DNA from: a virus | Virus record (IMG/VR): IMGVR_UViG_3300023273_001536 | Coordinates: 1 to 30,566 of that record | Length of the DNA: 30,566 bases | Strand: one strand, 5' to 3' | Part shown: positions 1 through 19,105 of the stretch, piece after piece | Layout: each line of letters starts with the position of its first letter | Numbering within the stretch: position 1 is the stretch's first letter | The notes under the pieces: model-generated | Seen by the model: the letters and a program-made list of their open reading frames with translations, nothing else | What the model was told of the DNA's origin: nothing | Databases searched by the model: none | Translations under genes and position numbers: made by a program

Positions 1-1670
1 GATTAGCTGAGTATATTGAAGAATCAGCAATTAACGAAGGTATTCATCCTAAAATTAAGAAAGCTATCAAGGCTGTTGAGAAAGGTGAAACCGTTTATGG
101 TGAGAATATCAGATTCCCTGGTAGATTTAAGATTATAGAATTTTCACCGACTGGATCAATGGCTACAGTAGACTATGAAGATGGTAAAGGACCAATGGAC
201 ATGGTTTCAATGAATATTAAGCTTGATTCTTTACAGTTTGAATCAGTAACTACAGAGGGTAGAGCATTTGTTGCGGCTGCTAAAAAAGCAAAAGACGATG
301 GAGACAAAGAATTTGAATTTGATGGTAAAAAATATCCAGTAACAATTAAAGAAGGTAGAGCATTTGTTGCGGCTGCTAAAAAAGCAAAAGATGCTGGAGA
401 TAAAGAATTTGAATTTGACGGTAAAAAATATCCAGTAACAATTAAAGAGGATAGAGCAGTAAGTGAAGGTAAAGAAGAAAAAGAAGCTAAAAATATTTTA
501 CTAGATCTTTTAGGAGAATATGATCCATGGGAATTAGCTGACATGTTACCTGATGATGCTAGAGAAACAGTTGCAACTTATGGACATAAGGGTGCTAAGG
601 CTGAAAAAATAGCAACTGCATTATTATCAATGGCTCAAAATGGAGAATTTGAATCAAAGAGAAACAAAAAAGAGGACAAATTCATATATGAGTCTTTTAA
701 ATCATATGTACAATCTTTAAGTAATAACACAGTTAATGAAGCATTTAAGTCTTCAAAGCTACAGTCTATTCTAGCAGGTGCAAAATCAATGCCAAAGAAT
801 CTAGCAAAGTCATTTTATTCAATGTCAAAACTTCAACTAGATAAAATTGAAGATATTGATATTATTGAAATGGATCCAATTTCTGCTAAAAAAGAAAAAA
901 GAAATAGAGCTGTATATTTTTACTTTACAACAAACGAAAAAGAAAACCCATATGCAAAGTCATATTCATATGGTGTAAAAAGTATTCCTGGAAACACACT
1001 ACTTGCAATGACAGATGGCAAGAATCAATGGTTATCTACGGGATGGATGCGAGGTGAATCAACAGTAACAACTTCAAAAAGAGATGATAGTATAGGATTC
1101 TCAAAATCAAGTACACAGGATGAATGGGGTTCAGGAATATCAAGTCTAACAAAAGTTGCAGAATTAGCCGACAGAGCGTATGTATTAGATCTTGACGTAC
1201 TAGATGCAAGATACTCATCATCTGCAAAAAGAACTGAAAGAGAGCAATCTAAAAAAGGAGCAATTGCCTTCAAGTCTGATAAAGATTTTAGAAAAGAAAA
1301 TAAGGACAGATACCACACAATTCTTGCAAATCGAGCAGCACAAATGCCAATAGACGCTGAAGTTTTAAAGGCCATTGATGTTGTTGCTGAGCAAATTAAA
1401 AATGGAATTGCTAATAAAGAAACATCTAAATACGGTGAACCGATTATTGGAACAGATCCTAAAGGAAGAAGTGTTTCTTTAAGAGATGCTTCGAACGCAA
1501 TGTCAAATCTATTAGATGACTTTAGAAGATACGTAGACTATACAAATAACGCAGAACAAGAAAAGAATGCTGGATATGAAGGTAGTTATTACGAAAGAGA
1601 AGTTAAGAACTATGCAAAGTCTATTAAAGATAGAATTAAAAAGATTCAAAATATGGACTATGTCTGGTAA
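1..1670 (+). CDS. Unknown phage protein with 32-residue tandem repeat, 5'-truncated by window edge
   Basis: The frame is open from base 3 with no stop, so the ATG at 159 is probably internal and the true start lies upstream of the window. The first visible residues, LAEYIEESAINEG, resemble the end of the capsid-targeting N-termini found on the next genes (hydrophobic-x-E cleavage-like sites). A 32-residue block (EGRAFVAAAKKAK... ending KKYPVTIK) occurs twice in tandem, with a partial third start. The middle of the protein has a second similar segment (FIYESFKSYVQ... TVNEAF). The C-terminal half is mixed alpha/beta with no motif I recognise. By position, directly before a run of capsid-targeted small proteins, it could be an internal head or core protein; that is inference. 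A short weak terminator-like hairpin follows the stop. Confidence 0.75.
   Translation, partial: LAEYIEESAINEGIHPKIKKAIKAVEKGETVYGENIRFPGRFKIIEFSPTGSMATVDYEDGKGPMDMVSMNIKLDSLQFESVTTEGRAFVAAAKKAKDDGDKEFEFDGKKYPVTIKEGRAFVAAAKKAKDAGDKEFEFDGKKYPVTIKEDRAVSEGKEEKEAKNILLDLLGEYDPWELADMLPDDARETVATYGHKGAKAEKIATALLSMAQNGEFESKRNKKEDKFIYESFKSYVQSLSNNTVNEAFKSSKLQSILAGAKSMPKNLAKSFYSMSKLQLDKIEDIDIIEMDPISAKKEKRNRAVYFYFTTNEKENPYAKSYSYGVKSIPGNTLLAMTDGKNQWLSTGWMRGESTVTTSKRDDSIGFSKSSTQDEWGSGISSLTKVAELADRAYVLDLDVLDARYSSSAKRTEREQSKKGAIAFKSDKDFRKENKDRYHTILANRAAQMPIDAEVLKAIDVVAEQIKNGIANKETSKYGEPIIGTDPKGRSVSLRDASNAMSNLLDDFRRYVDYTNNAEQEKNAGYEGSYYEREVKNYAKSIKDRIKKIQNMDYVW
255..446 (+). repeat. Two tandem 96-bp units coding a 32-residue repeat
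   Basis: Unit 1 is 255-350 and unit 2 is 351-446; they differ at only a few bases. Each encodes E-G-R-A-F-V-A-A-A-K-K-A-K followed by an acidic stretch and GKKYPVTIK. The first residues of a third copy (EDRAV) follow. The units are in frame, so gain or loss would preserve the protein. Confidence 0.9.
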
Positions 1671-1737: not shown

Positions 1738-2394
1738 ATGAAACACGTAGAATTATTCGAACAATTTATTAGTGAGAATACCACTAAACTAACAGAAGCA
1801 CTTGATGCAGGTGTAGTTACTAAAGTAGTTAAGTTGCAATTTGATATTAGCGATGAGATTAAAATAGACGATGAGGTTCTATTAGCCTTGGGCCCAGATG
1901 CAGTCGGTATGTTCTCAATCGCGGAAGATATTGAAAAGTGGACAGGCTTAAAAAAGGCCGAGGCTGAGGCATATGATACTAAACCTACTGATGCATTTCT
2001 TTATGGTATGTCTAACGTAATGAACGGCGGCGCTGATATGTTTTTGTGGATAACTATGGATCGTTTAAAAGGCGAGGCTGAAGCAAGCGGTAGCTTATTC
2101 GCTGCAATGATGGATGTTTTACCGCATGAGTGTTTTCACCTAGCTAAAAAAGTATTAGCTCGTCATCAAGCTAAAAAATTAGGAGTTTCTCTTAAAGGTG
2201 ATGAGTGGATTAAACATGACTATGGTCAAGGAGAATACACGTGGCCTTCAGAAGGTGATCATAAGGATCCAATGGTAGTTATGAGCGAAGAAGACTTTGC
2301 ATGGGTATATGGTTATATTACAAAAGCCGTAGCTCCTGTGTTTATTGAATTGGGTAAAACAATAATTCCTGAAATAGAAAATTTTGAAATATGA
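1738..2394 (+). CDS. Putative capsid-targeted internal protein with HExxH metallopeptidase motif
   Basis: A 218-residue protein. The N-terminus MKHVELFEQFISEN matches the pattern of T4 capsid targeting sequences (MKTYQEFIAEA on the internal proteins IPI-III and Alt), with I-S-E as a likely prohead-protease cut after residue 13. Residues 130-134 are HECFH (bases 2125-2139) in a helical context (LPHECFHLAKKVLARH), the zincin HExxH signature: two His zinc ligands plus catalytic Glu. A downstream SEEDFAWVYGY could supply a gluzincin-type third ligand. There is no signal peptide. The family resemblance is only at motif level. If both elements are real, it would be a protease carried in the head and injected with the DNA. 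Its stop overlaps the next start (ATGA). Confidence 0.75.
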   Translation: MKHVELFEQFISENTTKLTEALDAGVVTKVVKLQFDISDEIKIDDEVLLALGPDAVGMFSIAEDIEKWTGLKKAEAEAYDTKPTDAFLYGMSNVMNGGADMFLWITMDRLKGEAEASGSLFAAMMDVLPHECFHLAKKVLARHQAKKLGVSLKGDEWIKHDYGQGEYTWPSEGDHKDPMVVMSEEDFAWVYGYITKAVAPVFIELGKTIIPEIENFEI

Positions 2395-2681
2395 AACACG
2401 TAAAATTATTTGAACAATTCATTAACGAAGAAAAAATCAACGTTAAGAAAGAAGTTAAGAGACTTAAAAAAATGGGATACGATGCTTCAGAATGGGGTGA
2501 TGGTATTATGGTTGACGGTGTAGATGCACCAAATCCGGATTGGGATGGAAAGGTAACAATGGTTTGGGACGAAGAAGGTATTTACAGCGATGATGAAAGA
2601 TATACTGGAAACGATCATAGTTATGATAAATTCCTAGATATAATCGAGTATCCAGAGGACACTAAAGACGAGTGGGAATAA
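2391..2681 (+). CDS. Small acidic putative capsid-targeted internal protein
   Basis: A 96-residue protein whose start overlaps the previous stop by 4 bases. The N-terminus MKHVKLFEQFINEE is nearly identical to that of the upstream gene and has an I-N-E cleavage-like site at residue 13. After it come a basic helix (VKKEVKRLKKMGYD) and an acidic, Trp-rich C-terminal half rich in D, E, G and W. No catalytic motif is visible. By analogy with T4 internal proteins it could be a small effector or inhibitor ejected with the DNA. The function is unknown; the assignment rests on the shared N-terminus and its cluster. Confidence 0.75.
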   Translation: MKHVKLFEQFINEEKINVKKEVKRLKKMGYDASEWGDGIMVDGVDAPNPDWDGKVTMVWDEEGIYSDDERYTGNDHSYDKFLDIIEYPEDTKDEWE

Positions 2682-2720
2682 ATTGTAAAAAATACGATTT
2701 AAAAATAAATTTAGCAATCA

Positions 2721-3155
2721 ATGGAAGATAATGTAGAAGAAATGAACATAACACTAGCAAGTGTTGGTGGTATGGGAGCTGTAAAACTTCCAACTTCTAC
2801 TGAGTACACAGGTACCGGAGATGTTCCAGCAGGTCAAGGAGATGCTAAAGAAGAATTTAAGAAAAAAAGAAAAAAGAAAAAAATGAAAAATATTCAGACT
2901 TTTGAATCATTTATTTCAGAAGAGTATGTAGAGCTTGCTGGATTTGATACATTTACAGAAAGGCTAATTGAAGAGTTTAAAGATTGGTATAAAGAAACTG
3001 CAAATAATTGGGAAGATTTTTCAAAAAATATGGCCGAAGATTCGGTTGATGAAGCTGCAAAAAATGCACAGATGGAAATCTTAGCATATCTTTCAAATGA
3101 AATGAATAAGGTGATTACCGATAGAAAGTATCGAGTAAAGGCAGACTTTAAATAA
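2721..3155 (+). CDS. Small protein joining a capsid-like N-terminal motif to a capsid-targeting sequence
   Basis: A 144-residue frame. Residues 16-24, GGMGAVKLP, followed by TSTEYTGTGD, mirror a stretch of the major capsid protein in this window (GGMGAVTLP..., its residues 63-71, also followed by a GSGD turn). A strongly basic run (KKKRKKKK) leads to an internal methionine (base 2883) that opens MKNIQTFESFISEE, a variant of the capsid-targeting N-terminus seen on the neighbours. The frame may therefore be one fused product, or the true internal-protein start may be 2883, leaving a 90-residue product and an upstream coding remnant. The remainder is helical and acidic with no motif I know. An A-rich purine tract lies before both starts, so the leader does not decide between them. 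Confidence 0.65.
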   Translation: MEDNVEEMNITLASVGGMGAVKLPTSTEYTGTGDVPAGQGDAKEEFKKKRKKKKMKNIQTFESFISEEYVELAGFDTFTERLIEEFKDWYKETANNWEDFSKNMAEDSVDEAAKNAQMEILAYLSNEMNKVITDRKYRVKADFK

Positions 3156-3166
3156 AAACTATATAA

Positions 3167-3204
3167 ATGAAACATATAAAACTATTTGAAGCATTTGTAA
3201 ATGA
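3167..3204 (+). repeat. Copy 1 of a 38-bp exact repeat encoding the targeting leader
   Basis: These bases are identical to 3421-3458, starting at the ATG of each gene and ending inside the codon after the V-N-E site. Identity at wobble positions points to recent duplication or gene conversion rather than protein-level convergence. Confidence 0.9.
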
Positions 3205-3418
3205 GTCTAGTGGTAGAATACCAACTACTCTTTATCCTTCTGAGTTTAGACAATATTTCTCAGATATAAACTATGACACTCTAAAGCGTCAATATGATAG
3301 AGATACTCAACCAGAAGTTGCACAAGCTGACAATGGAAAATGGTATGAAGTATCATCTCATTATAATAAATCAGGAGATAGAGTTGTTAAATTAAAGTCC
3401 GTTAAGGCCCCTAAATAA
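3167..3418 (+). CDS. Small putative capsid-targeted internal protein
   Basis: An 83-residue protein beginning MKHIKLFEAFVNESS, a capsid-targeting-like leader with a V-N-E|S cleavage-like site. The mature part would be about 70 residues, rich in Tyr, Arg and Lys, including YPSEFRQYFSDINYD and a C-terminal stretch that looks like beta strands (KWYEVSSHYNKSGDRVVKLK). No enzymatic motif is visible. Its first 38 coding bases are identical to those of the next gene, indicating a recently copied or recombined leader cassette. It sits 2 bases before that gene, so the two are probably co-transcribed. Function unknown. Confidence 0.72.
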   Translation: MKHIKLFEAFVNESSGRIPTTLYPSEFRQYFSDINYDTLKRQYDRDTQPEVAQADNGKWYEVSSHYNKSGDRVVKLKSVKAPK

Positions 3419-3420
3419 TC

Positions 3421-3458
3421 ATGAAACATATAAAACTATTTGAAGCATTTGTAAATGA
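3421..3458 (+). repeat. Copy 2 of the 38-bp exact repeat encoding the targeting leader
   Basis: Second copy of the repeat at 3167-3204. The match breaks immediately after the putative cleavage site, where the two proteins become unrelated. Confidence 0.9.
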
Positions 3459-3738
3459 ATCAGCAATTGATGCACTTGCTAGCGAGATTAAAAACGCTGA
3501 AGTATATGACGCACTTTCTGATGAAAGTACAGTAAATGCAAGGTCGACTACTAAAACATGGGACGATGGAGTTCCAGTTCTAAAATATATTGCTAGAGCA
3601 TCTAAAAAGTCTGTAAAATTACCGAAAAAGTTTAAAGTAGTAGATGATTCTGAATATGGATGGTGGTATTTTCAAATTGGAAACACATGGTATGGAATAG
3701 AACAATCTGATTATAGCACTCCTCCATTTGAGTACTAA
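3421..3738 (+). CDS. Small putative capsid-targeted internal protein
   Basis: A 105-residue protein with the same leader as the gene before it (MKHIKLFEAFVNES), then an unrelated body: a short acidic helix followed by probable beta strands and a Trp/Tyr-rich end (YGWWYFQIGNTWYGIEQSD). The identical leader on different bodies fits a modular design, as in the variable internal-protein loci of T4 relatives. No catalytic residues stand out. It is the last gene before a strong terminator at 3762, so it closes the cluster. Function unknown. Confidence 0.72.
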   Translation: MKHIKLFEAFVNESAIDALASEIKNAEVYDALSDESTVNARSTTKTWDDGVPVLKYIARASKKSVKLPKKFKVVDDSEYGWWYFQIGNTWYGIEQSDYSTPPFEY

Positions 3739-3761: not shown

Positions 3762-3791
3762 AAGCCGAGATTTTTTAGTCTCGGCTTTTTT
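3762..3791 (+). terminator. Strong intrinsic terminator after the internal-protein cluster
   Basis: AAGCCGAGA (3762-3770), loop TTTTTTAG, TCTCGGCTT (3779-3787), running into a T tract to 3791. A perfect 9-bp stem with a GC-rich core. It separates the late-type cluster from the metabolic genes downstream. Confidence 0.9.
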
Positions 3792-3865: not shown

Positions 3866-4174
3866 ATGATAACAGGAGTACAACCAAAAATATTGCTAGA
3901 ACACGAAGAGATGAATTGGGAACTTGTTCGCTCGCATGATGGATTAACTAAGCGTTCAAGTAAAATCCTTTGGATTGAATGGAATGAGGACGGTACCTTT
4001 AAAGATAAACATAATACTCCTGAAATAGAGAGGTCTCTGATCATGTCTCCATTTAACCAATTTTTCACATGGCAAACTACTACAATTACTGAATTAATTG
4101 AGGCCACTGATGACTTAATTAGGTTTAAAACTAGAAATAGTGAATATGAACTACGTAAAATAGTAAATGAATGA
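3866..4174 (+). CDS. Conserved-looking hypothetical protein
   Basis: A 102-residue protein, first of three overlapping genes. It has an N-terminal helical part, a basic centre (GLTKRSSKILWIEWNEDG) and a C-terminal strand-turn-strand ending FKTRNSEYELRKIVNE. No membrane segment, signal or catalytic motif is visible. The SEYEL ending is reminiscent of small uncharacterised phage proteins, but I cannot name a family. Its stop overlaps the methylglyoxal synthase start by 4 bases (ATGA), so the two are probably translationally coupled. Confidence 0.65.
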   Translation: MITGVQPKILLEHEEMNWELVRSHDGLTKRSSKILWIEWNEDGTFKDKHNTPEIERSLIMSPFNQFFTWQTTTITELIEATDDLIRFKTRNSEYELRKIVNE

Positions 4175-4554
4175 AAATAGCACTAGTAGCCCATGATGGA
4201 AAAAAGGCAGATATGGTTGCTTTTGTAATGAAGAGACTAGACTTCTTCAACCGGGAAGACGTAAAACTTGTAGCAACTGGAACTACGGGAGCAAGCATCT
4301 TGCATGCTGGCGTGGAAAAAGTAGAGCGGGTAAATAGTGGTCCTCTTGGTGGTGATGCAGAAATAGGAGCAATGGTTGCTCGTGGTGAAATGGATGCAGT
4401 TGTGTTTTTTAGAGATCCTCTCGACAAACACCCACATGATGTTGACATTTCAATGTTGATGAGACTTTGTGACGTACATAATGTCCCATTAGCAACTAAT
4501 TATAAAGCAGCACATATAATAATTTTATATCTTAGTAAAAATGATGTATCTTAG
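4171..4554 (+). CDS. mgsA: Methylglyoxal synthase
   Basis: A 127-residue protein matching the MgsA family (Escherichia coli enzyme about 152 residues). The family converts dihydroxyacetone phosphate to methylglyoxal and phosphate, bypassing lower glycolysis. Visible signatures are IALVAHD (His8-Asp9, then Lys12), ATGTTG (35-40), SGPLGGD (56-62) with Asp62 at the position of the catalytic Asp71 of E. coli, FFRDPL (Asp82 = Asp91), and HPHDVD with His89 and Asp92 at the positions of His98 and Asp101. LATNYKAAHIII completes the fold. Every residue I know to be catalytic or phosphate-binding appears present; the E. coli N- and C-terminal tails are trimmed. It overlaps both neighbours. It may act on host sugar-phosphate metabolism as an auxiliary metabolic gene; that role is inference. 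Confidence 0.93.
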   Translation: MKIALVAHDGKKADMVAFVMKRLDFFNREDVKLVATGTTGASILHAGVEKVERVNSGPLGGDAEIGAMVARGEMDAVVFFRDPLDKHPHDVDISMLMRLCDVHNVPLATNYKAAHIIILYLSKNDVS

Positions 4555-5191: not shown

Positions 5192-6592
5192 ATGCTATTA
5201 GACATCGAGCAAAAGGACCAAGAAATAATTGTATCGTATTATAATAAAGAAGGAAAAGTAGCATTTAAAAGATACCCGGTAAGTCAATTTGAAAATTGGG
5301 TAGTAACAGAAGAAACAGATAAATGGCGCGACCAGAATTTTGTAAATTGGGACGGTCGCCCAATTAAAAGACAAAGGGCGAGATCTTTTAATAAGTTCTC
5401 GCTTGTCTATTTTATGGATTCTCTTCCTGAAAGCGATCAAGAAGAAATATTTGCATTTAATATGCCAAAAACATATTTTGTTGATATTGAGACTGAGATT
5501 GTTGATGGCTTTCCAAAAGCAGAAGAGGCAAAGAGTAGAATTCTTACCTTTTCAATAATCACACCTGATCGCAAGGCAATAGTTCTTGGCTTAGATGATT
5601 TATCTAGCGAGCAAATTAAAAAGATTGAAGAGAACACTAATAAACACTTCGAGAAGTACGATCAAGACTGGGAGTTCTCTTATTATAAATTCAAGGATGA
5701 ATATAATATGCTATATACATTCTTGCATAAGTTTTTGCCTAAGTTTCCTATGATGACGGGCTGGAACTTTATTAACTATGACTGGCAATATATTGTAAAT
5801 CGATGTAAAAGGTTACAACTTGACCTAACTGAAATAGCGGTCACCGGTGCTCTTGATAAAAATGATAGTAGGCCTTTACATATGGGTATTCTTGATTATA
5901 TGCAACTTTACGATAAATATGACAGATCTGTTAAAGTCAAAGAATCAAATAAACTTGATTTTGTTTCTGGCCAAGTTCTCGATGTTGCAAAAATTAAATA
6001 TACTGGAGGATTGCAAGATCTTTATCAGAATGATTTTCAAAAATATGTTTATTATAACGTAGTCGATTCAATTTTGGTTTATTATATCGATCAAAAGTTA
6101 AAATCAATGGAAGTTATTATGACCCTTGCAACAATCACAAAAATGCCTTTGTATAAAGCAGCTTCACCAGTTGCTGTAACCGAAGCTCTAATGGCTCGAA
6201 AAATGGCAGAACTAAATCGAAAAATTGGAGTAGATTATAGTCAAGAAGATAATAAAAAAGATGGTAAATATGCAGGTGCTTTTGTAAAGCAGCCTATTGT
6301 TGGTTACTATTCCGGTGTAAGTGCATTTGACTTTGCGTCTCTATATCCTTCGGTAATGAGACAATTTAATATTTCACCAGATGCATATGTTGATATTATT
6401 CCAACAAATGAAATCAAAGAACGTCGCAAAAATACTGAGGAGATTGTTTGTGAAAATGGAGTAGTATATAAAAAGGAAGACTCAATTCTAAAAAAGATTC
6501 TTAGCGATCTTTATTCTCAACGTAAAGAATACAAAGCAACGTCATATGAATTTTATGAAAAAGCACATGAACTTAAAAAAAAATTTAGGTAA
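5192..6592 (+). CDS. 43A: DNA polymerase part A (family B, gp43 N-terminal portion: exonuclease and motif A)
   Basis: A 466-residue N-terminal piece of a T4-type family B replicative polymerase. Proofreading exonuclease motifs are in order: Exo I FVDIETE (Asp98, Glu100), Exo II GWNFINYDWQYI (Asp197) and Exo III YNVVDSI (Tyr288, Asp292). Palm motif A follows, DFASLYPSVMR (metal-binding Asp380, SLYPS at 383-387). The protein ends after QRKEYKATSYEFYEKAHEL, inside the fingers domain and before motif B. Motifs B and C are encoded by a separate gene about 3.9 kb downstream. T4 gp43 is about 900 residues; parts A and B together give 866. The break falls in a loop region, so reassembly into an active enzyme is plausible. 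Split gp43 is known in some T4-related Aeromonas phages. Confidence 0.93.
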   Translation: MLLDIEQKDQEIIVSYYNKEGKVAFKRYPVSQFENWVVTEETDKWRDQNFVNWDGRPIKRQRARSFNKFSLVYFMDSLPESDQEEIFAFNMPKTYFVDIETEIVDGFPKAEEAKSRILTFSIITPDRKAIVLGLDDLSSEQIKKIEENTNKHFEKYDQDWEFSYYKFKDEYNMLYTFLHKFLPKFPMMTGWNFINYDWQYIVNRCKRLQLDLTEIAVTGALDKNDSRPLHMGILDYMQLYDKYDRSVKVKESNKLDFVSGQVLDVAKIKYTGGLQDLYQNDFQKYVYYNVVDSILVYYIDQKLKSMEVIMTLATITKMPLYKAASPVAVTEALMARKMAELNRKIGVDYSQEDNKKDGKYAGAFVKQPIVGYYSGVSAFDFASLYPSVMRQFNISPDAYVDIIPTNEIKERRKNTEEIVCENGVVYKKEDSILKKILSDLYSQRKEYKATSYEFYEKAHELKKKFR

Positions 6593-10498: not shown

Positions 10499-11701
10499 AT
10501 GAATATAGAAGAGTTAAAGAATAAACCAACCGATCAGTTAAGCAAAGATGAAGCAGGGCTCCTTATACAATACTATGAGGAGCTCTCTGCTAAATATACA
10601 GCTTATGAGCAGGCAGTTAAAGTAACTTTGAACTCTATCTATGGTGCATTTGGTAATAAGTGGTTTCACTTTTTCAATATTGACATTGCAGAATCAATTA
10701 CTTTACAAGGACAAGATGCTATCCTATACTCAGAAAGTATTATAAACAAGTATTTTCAAGAATTCTTTCATATAGATTCAGCAGTCCATGAAAAGTTTAA
10801 TATTAGAGTTAAGCATAGGCTAGAAAAACCTTCAGTAATATACATTGATACTGACTCTTGCTATGTTCAATTTGAAGAAATGTATAATGCGGTAGAATGG
10901 CTAGGTGAAGAAAAATCAATAGACACGTTTATCATAGAGCTTTATAATTATAGACTTAAAAGCTATATTGTTAAAGCTATGGAAAAGTACGCTGAAAAAA
11001 GAAATACTGATAATTTCTTGGTTTTTGAATTAGAAACAATAGCATACAACGGTATTTGGATGAGTAAGAAAAAATACATTCAAAATATTGCATGGGACGA
11101 TAAATTAGAAATAACAGATCGACATCCATCTTTGAAAAAAGTAAAAACCATTGGCTTCGATACAATTCAATCTTCTACACCTAAATTTGCACGTGAAAAA
11201 CTAGTAGATGCTCTTAAAATTTTATTTAAAAAGCATCAACAGCCAACTGCCGAAGATTTACAAGAGCTTGTTACGTTCATGAAGCAATCTAAAAAAGAGT
11301 TTAAGCTTGCAGATCTTGACGATATTTCTTTTAATAAAAGGACAAATAATATTGAAAAATATATCGTAGATGACCAAATAGAACTTCAGTTCGGGCTAAA
11401 GTGTCCACCTAATGTAAAGGCAGCCGGATACTATAACTATCTACTAAATAATAATACTAAATATAAAAATAAGTATAAGTTAATTGGTAATGGAGAAAAG
11501 CTAAAAATATACCATGTAAAAGATTCATTAAGTGATACTTTTGCGTATATGCCAGGTGAACATCCATATGAATTTGCACCAACTGTTGATTACGACACTC
11601 AATTTGAAAAGTCAATGATCGATCCTCTTAATCGAGTCTTAAAAGCAATTGGTCTACAAACACTAGACACTAATCTAATTTATGCGTCTGCGCTATTTTA
11701 A
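10499..11701 (+). CDS. 43B: DNA polymerase part B (family B, gp43 C-terminal portion: motifs B and C)
   Basis: A 400-residue C-terminal piece of the family B polymerase. Residues 41-53 are motif B (KVTLNSIYGAFGN), and Y115-I-D-T-D119-S is motif C with its two catalytic aspartates. Further conserved blocks match the T4/RB69 palm and thumb: ELETIAYNGIWMSKKKY, KTIGFDTIQSSTP and FGLKCPPNVKAAGYYNYLL. The first about 40 residues supply the second half of the fingers hairpin, so nothing essential seems lost at the break. The C-terminus ...LIYASALF is a likely clamp-binding peptide. The start lies one base after the clamp stop, so clamp and part B are probably co-translated. Part A is 3.9 kb upstream with nrdB and nrdA in between. 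Confidence 0.93.
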   Translation: MNIEELKNKPTDQLSKDEAGLLIQYYEELSAKYTAYEQAVKVTLNSIYGAFGNKWFHFFNIDIAESITLQGQDAILYSESIINKYFQEFFHIDSAVHEKFNIRVKHRLEKPSVIYIDTDSCYVQFEEMYNAVEWLGEEKSIDTFIIELYNYRLKSYIVKAMEKYAEKRNTDNFLVFELETIAYNGIWMSKKKYIQNIAWDDKLEITDRHPSLKKVKTIGFDTIQSSTPKFAREKLVDALKILFKKHQQPTAEDLQELVTFMKQSKKEFKLADLDDISFNKRTNNIEKYIVDDQIELQFGLKCPPNVKAAGYYNYLLNNNTKYKNKYKLIGNGEKLKIYHVKDSLSDTFAYMPGEHPYEFAPTVDYDTQFEKSMIDPLNRVLKAIGLQTLDTNLIYASALF

Positions 11702-17740: not shown

Positions 17741-19105
17741 ATGAAGAAACTATTAAATCTAGATGGATTTTTGAATGAATCAAAGATTGTAAAATCTACC
17801 GAATTATTTGATCCTAAGCTAAATAAGGCGGCCGATGTAATTTTAAGGTTCTTAAATAAGAAAACAGGAGCTGATTATAAGAAACTACCTTATGTACTAA
17901 CACACAGCGTTGAAGGAAGAGAAGAATCTAGCGTTATGCTTTATTCTAATAACTCAGATTCTGCAGTTAGAATTGCTGGAAACTCTGGAATCCCTGGGAT
18001 AGTAAGTTCTCTTTCTTATTTTTCAAAACACTATAGTGAGACTGCCGACTTTATTATAACTTCAGATAAATTCCCAATTGTTAAACTTCTAGGAGAATTT
18101 GTTAGATTAACCGATGCTGAATATGCTAAAGCTGTAGCAGAATCATACGACGGTATAGAAGAAGGTAGAAAACCAGCATATATCTTTAATAAAAAGGAAA
18201 TAGCTGAAATTACAAAAATGCTTGACAGCGGAATGTCAGCCGGTGATATTTCAGAAGAATTAGATATTCCATATAGATCTATTTTAAAGATTAAAAAAGG
18301 AGTTACGGTTCCAGAGGTAAAATCTCCAATGGAAGAAGCTAATGAAAAAACTCTTGATGATAAAGTTAAGTATCTTGAAGAAACGATGCAGGATATTTAT
18401 GATATTACTAGAGTTATTGGAGCAGGAGCCCCTAACATGCAATCACTATTTATATCTGGAAGAGCAGGTACTGGTAAAACATATAATGTAGAAAGAGCAT
18501 TAAAAGATGAAGGTCTTATTGAAGATGAAGATTACATTTTAGTTTCAGGAGCTGCTTCTCCTATTATAATGTTTAAAAAATTCTATCAATATAGAACAAA
18601 AGTTCTTGTGTTTGATGATTGTGATGCTGTATTTAGAGATGAAAATGGTAGAAATATGTTAAAAGCTGCCCTTGATACAAAACCAGTTAGAAAAATTAGC
18701 TGGCTAAAAAAGTCATCAACTGTATTTGACCCTAAAGATTTTGAAAACGATCCTGAAGGAGAATTCAATGCACTTGAAGCCGGATTAGTCCCAAACCAAT
18801 TTGAATTTGCCGGAAGAGTCATATTTATTTCTAACTTAGAAAAAGATAAAGCCGATCCTGATGGAGCAATTCAATCAAGATCTATTCTACTTGACATTAG
18901 TCCAGATGATGCAACTCTTATGGAAAGAATGAAAAAACTTCTACCGTATTTAGAGCCAACTGATATGCCTTTAAATGAAAAGGAAGAGATCTATGAATTT
19001 ATGAAAAAGGCAAATGATGTTTCAATGAGAACATTCATTAAAGCGGCTGGATTTAAAAGAGCAGGTCTTGCAAACTGGGAAAGAATGGCAAAAAGATACC
19101 TATAA
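17741..19105 (+). CDS. AAA+ ATPase with a capsid-targeting-like N-terminus and an HTH-like segment
   Basis: A 454-residue protein. The N-terminus MKKLLNLDGFLNES resembles the leaders on the internal-protein cluster, with L-N-E|S as a possible prohead-protease site. An alpha/beta domain runs to about residue 145. A region near 150-187 (KKEIAEITKML, then SAGDISEELDIPYRSILKIKKG) looks like a helix-turn-helix. An AAA+ module follows: Walker A GRAGTGKT (240-247), Walker B VLVFDDCD (Asp292-Asp293), a sensor-1-like VIFISN, and an arginine in SRSILLDIS. I do not know the family's function in T4-type phages. It could be a packaged ATPase, a DNA-remodelling factor or a head-assembly chaperone. It is preceded by a candidate late promoter and followed 3 bases later by the tail gene. 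Confidence 0.8.
   Translation: MKKLLNLDGFLNESKIVKSTELFDPKLNKAADVILRFLNKKTGADYKKLPYVLTHSVEGREESSVMLYSNNSDSAVRIAGNSGIPGIVSSLSYFSKHYSETADFIITSDKFPIVKLLGEFVRLTDAEYAKAVAESYDGIEEGRKPAYIFNKKEIAEITKMLDSGMSAGDISEELDIPYRSILKIKKGVTVPEVKSPMEEANEKTLDDKVKYLEETMQDIYDITRVIGAGAPNMQSLFISGRAGTGKTYNVERALKDEGLIEDEDYILVSGAASPIIMFKKFYQYRTKVLVFDDCDAVFRDENGRNMLKAALDTKPVRKISWLKKSSTVFDPKDFENDPEGEFNALEAGLVPNQFEFAGRVIFISNLEKDKADPDGAIQSRSILLDISPDDATLMERMKKLLPYLEPTDMPLNEKEEIYEFMKKANDVSMRTFIKAAGFKRAGLANWERMAKRYL

Follow-up and report, generated by a model that had tools for sequence, protein, structure and literature searches.

The bacteriophage T4 internal proteins IPI, IPII and IPIII carry a short N-terminal leader, the capsid targeting sequence (CTS), which begins MK, holds two aromatic residues three apart and ends in [IL]-x-E followed by A, in front of unrelated bodies; ipII and ipIII read MKTYQEFIAEA, and ipI reads MKTFKEFTSTTTPVSTITEA. 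According to the accessible part of a review (PMC9026906), the T4 protease gp21 cleaves behind L/I-x-E; within the CTS, residues 4 and 7 act in targeting and residues 8 and 10 in processing, and Asp at position 10 stops processing while leaving targeting in place; the same part describes T4-type CTS proteins as basic and the leader as having affinity for the core. The T4 leader can direct foreign proteins to the head interior, and IPI*, once packaged and injected, inhibits a restriction enzyme, as stated in the accessible text of PMC3012670. Here we describe a leader of this design in a 30.6 kb virus record (IMG/VR IMGVR_UViG_3300023273_001536; 30,566 nt, the whole of which is called the window below), where it heads a cassette of small genes with unrelated bodies, in a genome that, like T4, encodes an S77-type protease. 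We conclude from sequence comparison that this leader is very probably a T4-type capsid-targeting propeptide, serving for both targeting and cutting.

One DNA pattern for the leader, with up to three mismatches allowed, matched the window six times, against a mean of 0.02 in 100 dinucleotide shuffles, none of which reached six. Five of the matches confirm the leaders that a preliminary description of this DNA had placed at 1738, 2391, 2883, 3167 and 3421, all on the plus strand, as are the other window features given below in the form start..end. Leader protein 1 (1738..2394, 218 aa) opens with MKHVELFEQFISE followed by N and has a second possible site, LTE before A; leader protein 2 (2391..2681, 96 aa) opens with MKHVKLFEQFINE followed by E and matches no known family. 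The third leader is internal, as had been proposed, and lies within an open reading frame (ORF) at 2721..3155. This ORF encodes a 144-aa fusion protein made up of a stretch similar to an arm of the window capsid protein (GGMGAVKLP...GTGD, 2766..2822), a basic stretch KKKRKKKK (2859..2882), the leader MKNIQTFESFISE followed by E (2883..2921), and a body. Leader proteins 4 (3167..3418, 83 aa) and 5 (3421..3738, 105 aa) both open with MKHIKLFEAFVNE followed by S, and a homolog of the latter in L080 likewise bears a leader. The cassette ends at a terminator-like hairpin (3762..3787; 11-pair stem, then a T run), one of six terminator-like sites in the region as against 2.1 in shuffles, and would be one small operon of cargo proteins (1738-3738). 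Outside the leader, no Pfam or PHROGs family is common to the five proteins, which bears out the earlier view that their bodies are unrelated. The sixth match, also anticipated, is the leader of the putative core protein at 24345, discussed below. None of the six window leader strings was found in the literature searched.

A scan of IMG/VR with the leader DNA pattern gave at least 119 stretches, most of them at or near the start of an ORF, and all 119 were used for protein collection. With a wider expression, 99 of the 119 loci yielded, among the matches listed, 194 non-identical complete leader proteins. Without their first 15 residues, these fall into 127 body families (BLAST, 1e-4), 89 of them single. 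Conservation of the leader ends at residue 13: information content is 3.5 bits at residue 13, 0.72 at residue 14 and at most 0.15 from residue 15 on, with the proviso that the search itself largely selected residues 1-13 but not those further on. In 74 of 127 family representatives residue 14 is A, S or G, against a background of 18.9%. For 102 leaders the search had imposed nothing at residues 11-13; of these, 64 combine a hydrophobic residue at 11 with E at 13, where about 2% would be expected. All 127 representatives have F or Y at positions 7 and 10, although both positions were required by the search.

These data bear on two other accounts of the leader. It might act at the nucleic-acid level, for instance in translation start, at the 5' ends of genes rather than as a protein tag, given that it sits at the start codon in all 194 proteins (though by selection), that the genes are often tightly packed, and that some codons are skewed, His being written CAC more than CAT. 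Neighbouring leader genes, head to tail as in L051 and L102, lie at most 60 nt apart in 60 of 95 cases, so small leader operons appear to be the usual arrangement. The conserved residues are nevertheless written in mixed synonymous codons, the hydrophobic residue at 11 and the Glu at 13 are preserved at the protein level, and further copies of the motif stand inside proteins or at their C-termini, in places without Met. We rejected a DNA-level or translation-start element on the mixed codons and on the internal and C-terminal copies, and regard this account as barely credible. Alternatively, the leader could be the best conserved end of one old paralogous family whose members have diverged beyond recognition. 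There are clear within-contig paralogs (two family members in L077, three in L109), and leaders from the same locus resemble each other, sharing residue 6 at a frequency of 0.786, a value reached in 0 of 500 permutations. Against common ancestry of the bodies stand their differing sizes (the part behind the leader reaches 509 aa), their different Pfam families and the abrupt end of conservation at residues 13-14. Moreover, one domain is headed by a leader in L003, where it is a separate protein, and occurs leaderless as the final domain of a longer window protein (3..1670). We consider a single diverged family highly improbable.

Whole-record counts reached 23 leaders in G003 (482 kb), 21 in G007 (234 kb), 19 in G058 (200 kb) and 12 in the uncultured phage LR756500, where they mostly read MKYIxEYEEF; the reversed pattern, used as a control for these counts, gave 0 in 18 of 18 and in 10 of 10 records. 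The same leader pattern gave 0 in T4, PTm1, Lak-A2, MaF61, MA9V-1, pT24, S-BM1, D479, LR756501 and LR745206. A second pattern, with free spacing and the Glu one step later (control, 0 in 15), recovered T4 ipII and ipIII, which served as positive controls, plus one further T4 gene, 61.1. It also matched 11 places in LR756500, one in LR756504, two in LR756502, four in LR756501 and three in LR745206. A sister of this second pattern matched one gene in D479 and gave one control match in LR756504; one LR745206 match in the sister scan has an in-frame stop inside and was set aside as chance. In bacterial and archaeal genomes the leader pattern was confined to four stretches, three in contigs of metagenome-assembled genomes titled Lishizhenia, Saprospirales and Bacteroidales and one in Helicobacteraceae; the phylum of each is our own assumption. 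A tblastn search with joined leader strings returned five records, with a best E of 0.3.

The window has T4-type head genes in the order portal, gp67-position gene, S77 protease-scaffold and major capsid protein. The S77 prohead protease (24752..26695, 647 aa; PF03420, E 6.9e-14; phrog_207, E 6.7e-40) is fused to a scaffold. Its scaffold half has eight copies of [FYH]xx[FYH][ILV]xE, from HNDHIVE to YAEYIAE (25493..25870), where shuffles give 0.1. We searched for the protease in 20 leader contigs (the longest of 80 rows listed), LR756500 and PTm1. It was above the cut-off in 16 of the 20 contigs, in open frames of 606-747 aa; the other contigs may be fragments. In the scaffold halves of 21 fused proteins (that of the window and 20 others; the first 170 residues were omitted from these statistics), the motif occurs 173 times as against 2.0 in shuffles, and its reversal 0 times as against 2.1 expected. 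Twenty of the 21 scaffolds have 4-15 copies, commonly 14 residues apart, and the single exception is PTm1, a phage without the leader. Since the same motif recurs 4-15 times in the scaffold half, the cargo leaders are likely to mimic the scaffold repeat unit. As controls we used 26 contigs of 80 listed that were drawn by an unrelated 15-base pattern, namely those over 49 kb plus L122; L149 and L152 were omitted because they are located in leader contigs already counted. Two of the 26 have leaders (7 and 14), and both have the fused protease. In the other 24, an S77 protease was found in two, both times as a stand-alone frame of about 209 aa. A second S77 match above the cut-off, in a short 132-aa frame distant from the fused protease, was also seen at G007:57359-57613, G008:156418-156672 and G044:36115-36369.

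The gene at the gp67 position, between the portal and prohead protease genes, encodes in the window a putative core protein of 118 aa (24345..24701) that opens with MKRVKLFEEFIKE followed by D, so that the leader type is the one seen in the cassette, as previously suggested. Besides the window, 12 of 20 head regions have a gene in this interval, and the other eight yielded none. Its product opens with the leader in 13 of 13 homologs, nine of which read F[ILV]xE directly (for L253 and L259, the sequence was taken from an internal Met at the leader onward). Compared with PHROGs, the window protein gave no match below 0.07. The major capsid protein (26785..28266; arm at 26971-27039) has a possible cut site of its own at KLYE before DA. 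In an alignment of capsid proteins, most rows have L-[YN]-E before D, S, N or E, which L263 lacks and which lies elsewhere in L270.

The fit of the motif to the T4 rule, the scaffold repeats, the leader on the core protein, the excess of A, S or G after the Glu and the loss of the Glu where nothing follows the motif (see below) together strongly support the capsid-targeting and cleavage reading put forward in the preliminary description. In the mechanism we favour, the aromatic pair F7 and F10 would copy the repeat unit of the genome's own scaffold. As a result of this copying, a leader-bearing protein would be taken into the prohead core. The scaffold-fused S77 protease would then cut after [ILV]-x-E13, freeing the body inside the maturing head, and the freed body would leave together with the DNA at ejection. 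Scaffold binding, cutting in vivo, presence in virions and injection are steps that we infer, and we judge the whole chain, from scaffold mimicry through prohead entry and cutting to ejection with the DNA, to be probable.

Several observations weigh against targeting and cutting through scaffold mimicry. Four other huge phages have 11-14 scaffold copies, yet they have 0-1 leaders by one pattern or 1-4 by another. T4 has targeting sequences, but its scaffold protein gp22 lacks the full motif. The genomes with leaders are related, and near-identical rows occur among the 21 scaffolds and the 13 core proteins, so the association of leader and fused scaffold is partly one of shared descent. Four of the 13 core proteins, close relatives of one another, read FE[EQ]FTSSLQE rather than F[ILV]xE. 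The short site [ILV].E is enriched in scaffolds (575 as against 269.5), but so is its reversal E.[ILV] (526 as against 269.8), and therefore only the full motif is informative. In the window itself, the residue after the Glu is A, S or G in merely two of six leaders, and across the collection 63 of 194 leader bodies have an isoelectric point above 8, most being not basic, unlike T4-type CTS proteins. Two further points concern the Glu of the arm proteins described next: within the nearer group alone, it is kept in 1 of 7 terminal motifs as against 21 of 39 with a body (p=0.10), and Asp takes its place in 12 of the 39 body-bearing proteins as well, most of them from one family.

The arm-like stretch of the fusion protein at 2721-3155 aligns with the window capsid protein at a score of 54, reached by 1 of 2000 shuffles. 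Proteins like it recur in leader contigs, with DUF3008 in front in three of five scanned. An arm search that made no use of the leader gathered 63 distinct arm proteins, and 58 of them have a leader-like motif after the arm (its placement in L330 is doubtful). Six of the 63 belong to neither of two classes, one in which the motif ends the protein and one in which a body follows. The Glu is kept in 1 of 18 proteins where the motif is terminal, compared with 21 of 39 where a body follows (Fisher p=0.0004, rows not independent). Many rows are related or near-identical, such as L256, L257 and L268, and p-values are therefore optimistic. Asp stands in place of Glu in 5 of the 7 terminal motifs of the nearer group. 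The contrast is also seen between sisters: KKFKSFEEFI[SGN]E followed by AS and a body in L099, L075 and L351, and terminal FEDFIKD and FEEFTSK in L339 and L354. As the Glu is mostly lost where the motif ends the protein, one class of arm proteins apparently employs the motif yet is not released from it.

A class of this kind raises the possibility that leader proteins, once taken into the prohead and cut, serve there as core or structural components and are degraded or retained rather than injected as effectors. The capsid-arm-like class carries the motif, often minus the cleavable Glu; the gp67-position protein, core by location, has the leader; and injected functions are proposed here by analogy with T4. 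Set against this are 127 body families and up to 23 leaders per contig, more than a head is likely to need, several enzyme-like bodies, and the injected inhibitor among the targeted internal proteins of T4 (PMC3012670, accessible text). We consider a purely structural role unlikely and retain targeting, cutting and ejection as the better account of the leader proteins.

T4 itself has a small protein with the same three parts as the ORF 2721-3155 product. T4 gp61.1 is a 54-residue hypothetical protein (NC_000866, 18966-19130, minus strand; L394:567-731) that consists of a CTS-like leader (MKTFKEFIKE), a stretch copying the gp23 N-arm (score 69, reached by 0 of 2000 shuffles) and a KKKK tail. 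The order differs, with the leader first in gp61.1 and the arm first in the window protein, and gp61.1 has no body after its basic stretch, whereas the window protein does. In a tblastn search, gp61.1 matched 1380 phage records, none covering 80% of the query. The 25 matches listed are mostly hypothetical proteins, with one annotated as a major capsid protein, so that the capsid arm itself may account for part of the matches. In the literature consulted, gp61.1 appears in an annotation table. We predict from its layout that gp61.1 is a prohead component.

Comparison with T4 upholds the T4-like cleavage logic, in that two aromatic residues three apart are followed by [ILV]-x-E, in agreement with the mutagenesis covered in the accessible part of PMC9026906. 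Two details of the earlier comparison have to be corrected: the T4 leader is not of the same length, having 10 residues on IPII and IPIII as against 13 here, and T4 Alt, which had been named as a bearer of the CTS, does not open with that sequence. T4 also differs in scale, with 3 leaders by the T4-spaced pattern as against up to 23 per contig here, in lacking the internal and C-terminal copies, in having basic CTS proteins where the bodies here are mostly not basic, and in its gp22, where the scaffold here is fused to the protease and has many motif copies. Copies of the scaffold motif number 0 in T4 gp22, Lak-A2, MaF61, MA9V-1 and S-BM1 and one each in pT24 and D479; Lak-A2 was translated with TAG as Gln, which we take to be its code. 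T4 gp22 does contain FIDHLAKE and YINYVQRE, which read aromatic-xx-aromatic-[LV] with the Glu one step later (2 as against 0.05, for a pattern chosen post hoc). Inner head propeptides of giant phages of the SPN3US type offer a second likeness, since they are removed by a gp21-like prohead protease and thought to target ejected cargo; most of them are much longer, at 124-127 residues for example, and as far as the accessible text of PMC5694885 goes, their motif is not a scaffold repeat. We thus see leader use as a system of the T4 kind on a much larger scale. Its new aspects are the scale itself, the probable copying of a scaffold unit, and the use of the motif inside proteins and at their C-termini.

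What the cargo does may be judged from the few recognised bodies. Among 131 leader proteins, Pfam gave matches to 16 families, one member each, and PHROGs to 22; PADLOC gave scattered matches, one member each, the best at 1.5e-4. A 2H-phosphoesterase family carries the leader in four contigs (L011, L042, L070 and L082), and all four proteins have two H-x-[ST] motifs. PF23474 (Acb1) was above the cut-off in L042 and L070 and below it in L082, the three scanned, and PF13563 was above it in all three. A structural model of this cargo is fairly confident (predicted local distance difference test, pLDDT, 78.3; least certain at residues 8-17, around the proposed cut) and matches many 2H structures. 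The protein shares the 2H fold and two H-x-T motifs with Acb1, a nuclease directed against the cyclic-oligonucleotide-based anti-phage signalling system (CBASS), but it resembles other 2H enzymes to an equal or greater degree, and other 2H structures outrank Acb1. BLASTP of L082 with T4 57B gave a match of just 10 residues. The remaining recognised bodies are cytidylyltransferase-like, ATP-grasp and cyclic-phosphate receiver proteins. HExxH occurs in leader protein 1 (as HECFH) and in two other leader proteins. On this motif leader protein 1 is possibly a zinc peptidase; its Pfam match to DUF5700 (putative zinc peptidase) is under the cut-off (E 0.056), its fold prediction is unreliable (mean pLDDT 38.9), and the five loci found for it are all 100% identical copies. 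A role in counter-defence is suggested solely by the 2H-phosphoesterase family, found in other contigs and in none of the five window genes, for which injection and counter-defence would follow by analogy. Internal sites do not set leader bodies apart: [ILV].E[ASG] is enriched 1.49-fold in them and 1.51-fold in control ORFs, and [ILV]NE[ASG] 6.2-fold and 3.9-fold, which gives no ground for assigning leader bodies a polyprotein role of their own. In one leader protein (L067:4922-6034), a second leader-like copy, AAFEQFVSES, lies near residue 84.

If the leader acts as we propose, a short motif predicts virion cargo straight from sequence in uncultured phages, with candidate injected proteins in more than 100 families, mostly without assigned function. 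The targeting mechanism would be mimicry of a scaffold unit, where PMC9026906, in its accessible part, gives the leader an affinity for the core, and the small T4 protein gp61.1 would allow a cheap test in a laboratory phage. We give roughly equal weight for and against a broader proposal, that of a general protein-delivery system in huge T4-like phages, probably of Bacteroidota. In such a system, a 13-residue copy of the scaffold unit would make a gene product injected virion cargo, cut free by the fused protease, in more than 100 unrelated families that probably include counter-defence and RNA-processing enzymes; tags without the Glu would hold a capsid-arm mimic in the core, and T4, with gp61.1, would be a small version.

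As to the source of the window, the closest match to its capsid protein in an annotated phage is LR756500 (462 kb; 49%), with Prevotella Lak phages and Tenacibaculum phages next. Within the 20 bases upstream of leader genes, A is abundant and no clear Shine-Dalgarno site is seen, which fits Bacteroidota hosts. The accessible text of PMC9723584 describes huge phages whose head genes are similar and whose hosts are inferred to be Bacteroidetes.

Elsewhere in the window, looser leaders had been suggested for two genes. The AAA+ protein (phrog_1250; 17741..19105; PHROGs match and homolog comparison) gives the suggestion weak support: its degenerate leader, MKKLLNLDGFLNE followed by S, lacks the first aromatic residue, but a 49%-identical homolog starts MKHVKLFEEFINE followed by S. 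No T4 relative of this protein was found at 50.8-52.8 kb of T4, the one region checked. At 29071 the opening, MKLSKKLMLLEEFADIKPD, lacks an aromatic pair followed by [ILV]xE and was missed by the motif scan, and we rejected it as a leader. The ORF at 3..1670 is the 3' end of a long ORF that starts upstream of the window; in L037, where it runs from about 8310, it begins MIDFNEFSRNLSE followed by S and has two tandem 33-residue units, with several [ILV]xE sites before A, S or G between segments. Directly after the cassette and its hairpin, 4171-4554 encodes a methylglyoxal-synthase-like (MGS-like) domain protein (PF02142, E 2.1e-15). From their translations, we take 5192-6592 and 10499-11701 to be the separated halves of a family B DNA polymerase, between which lie what are presumably ribonucleotide-reductase-like and clamp-like genes.

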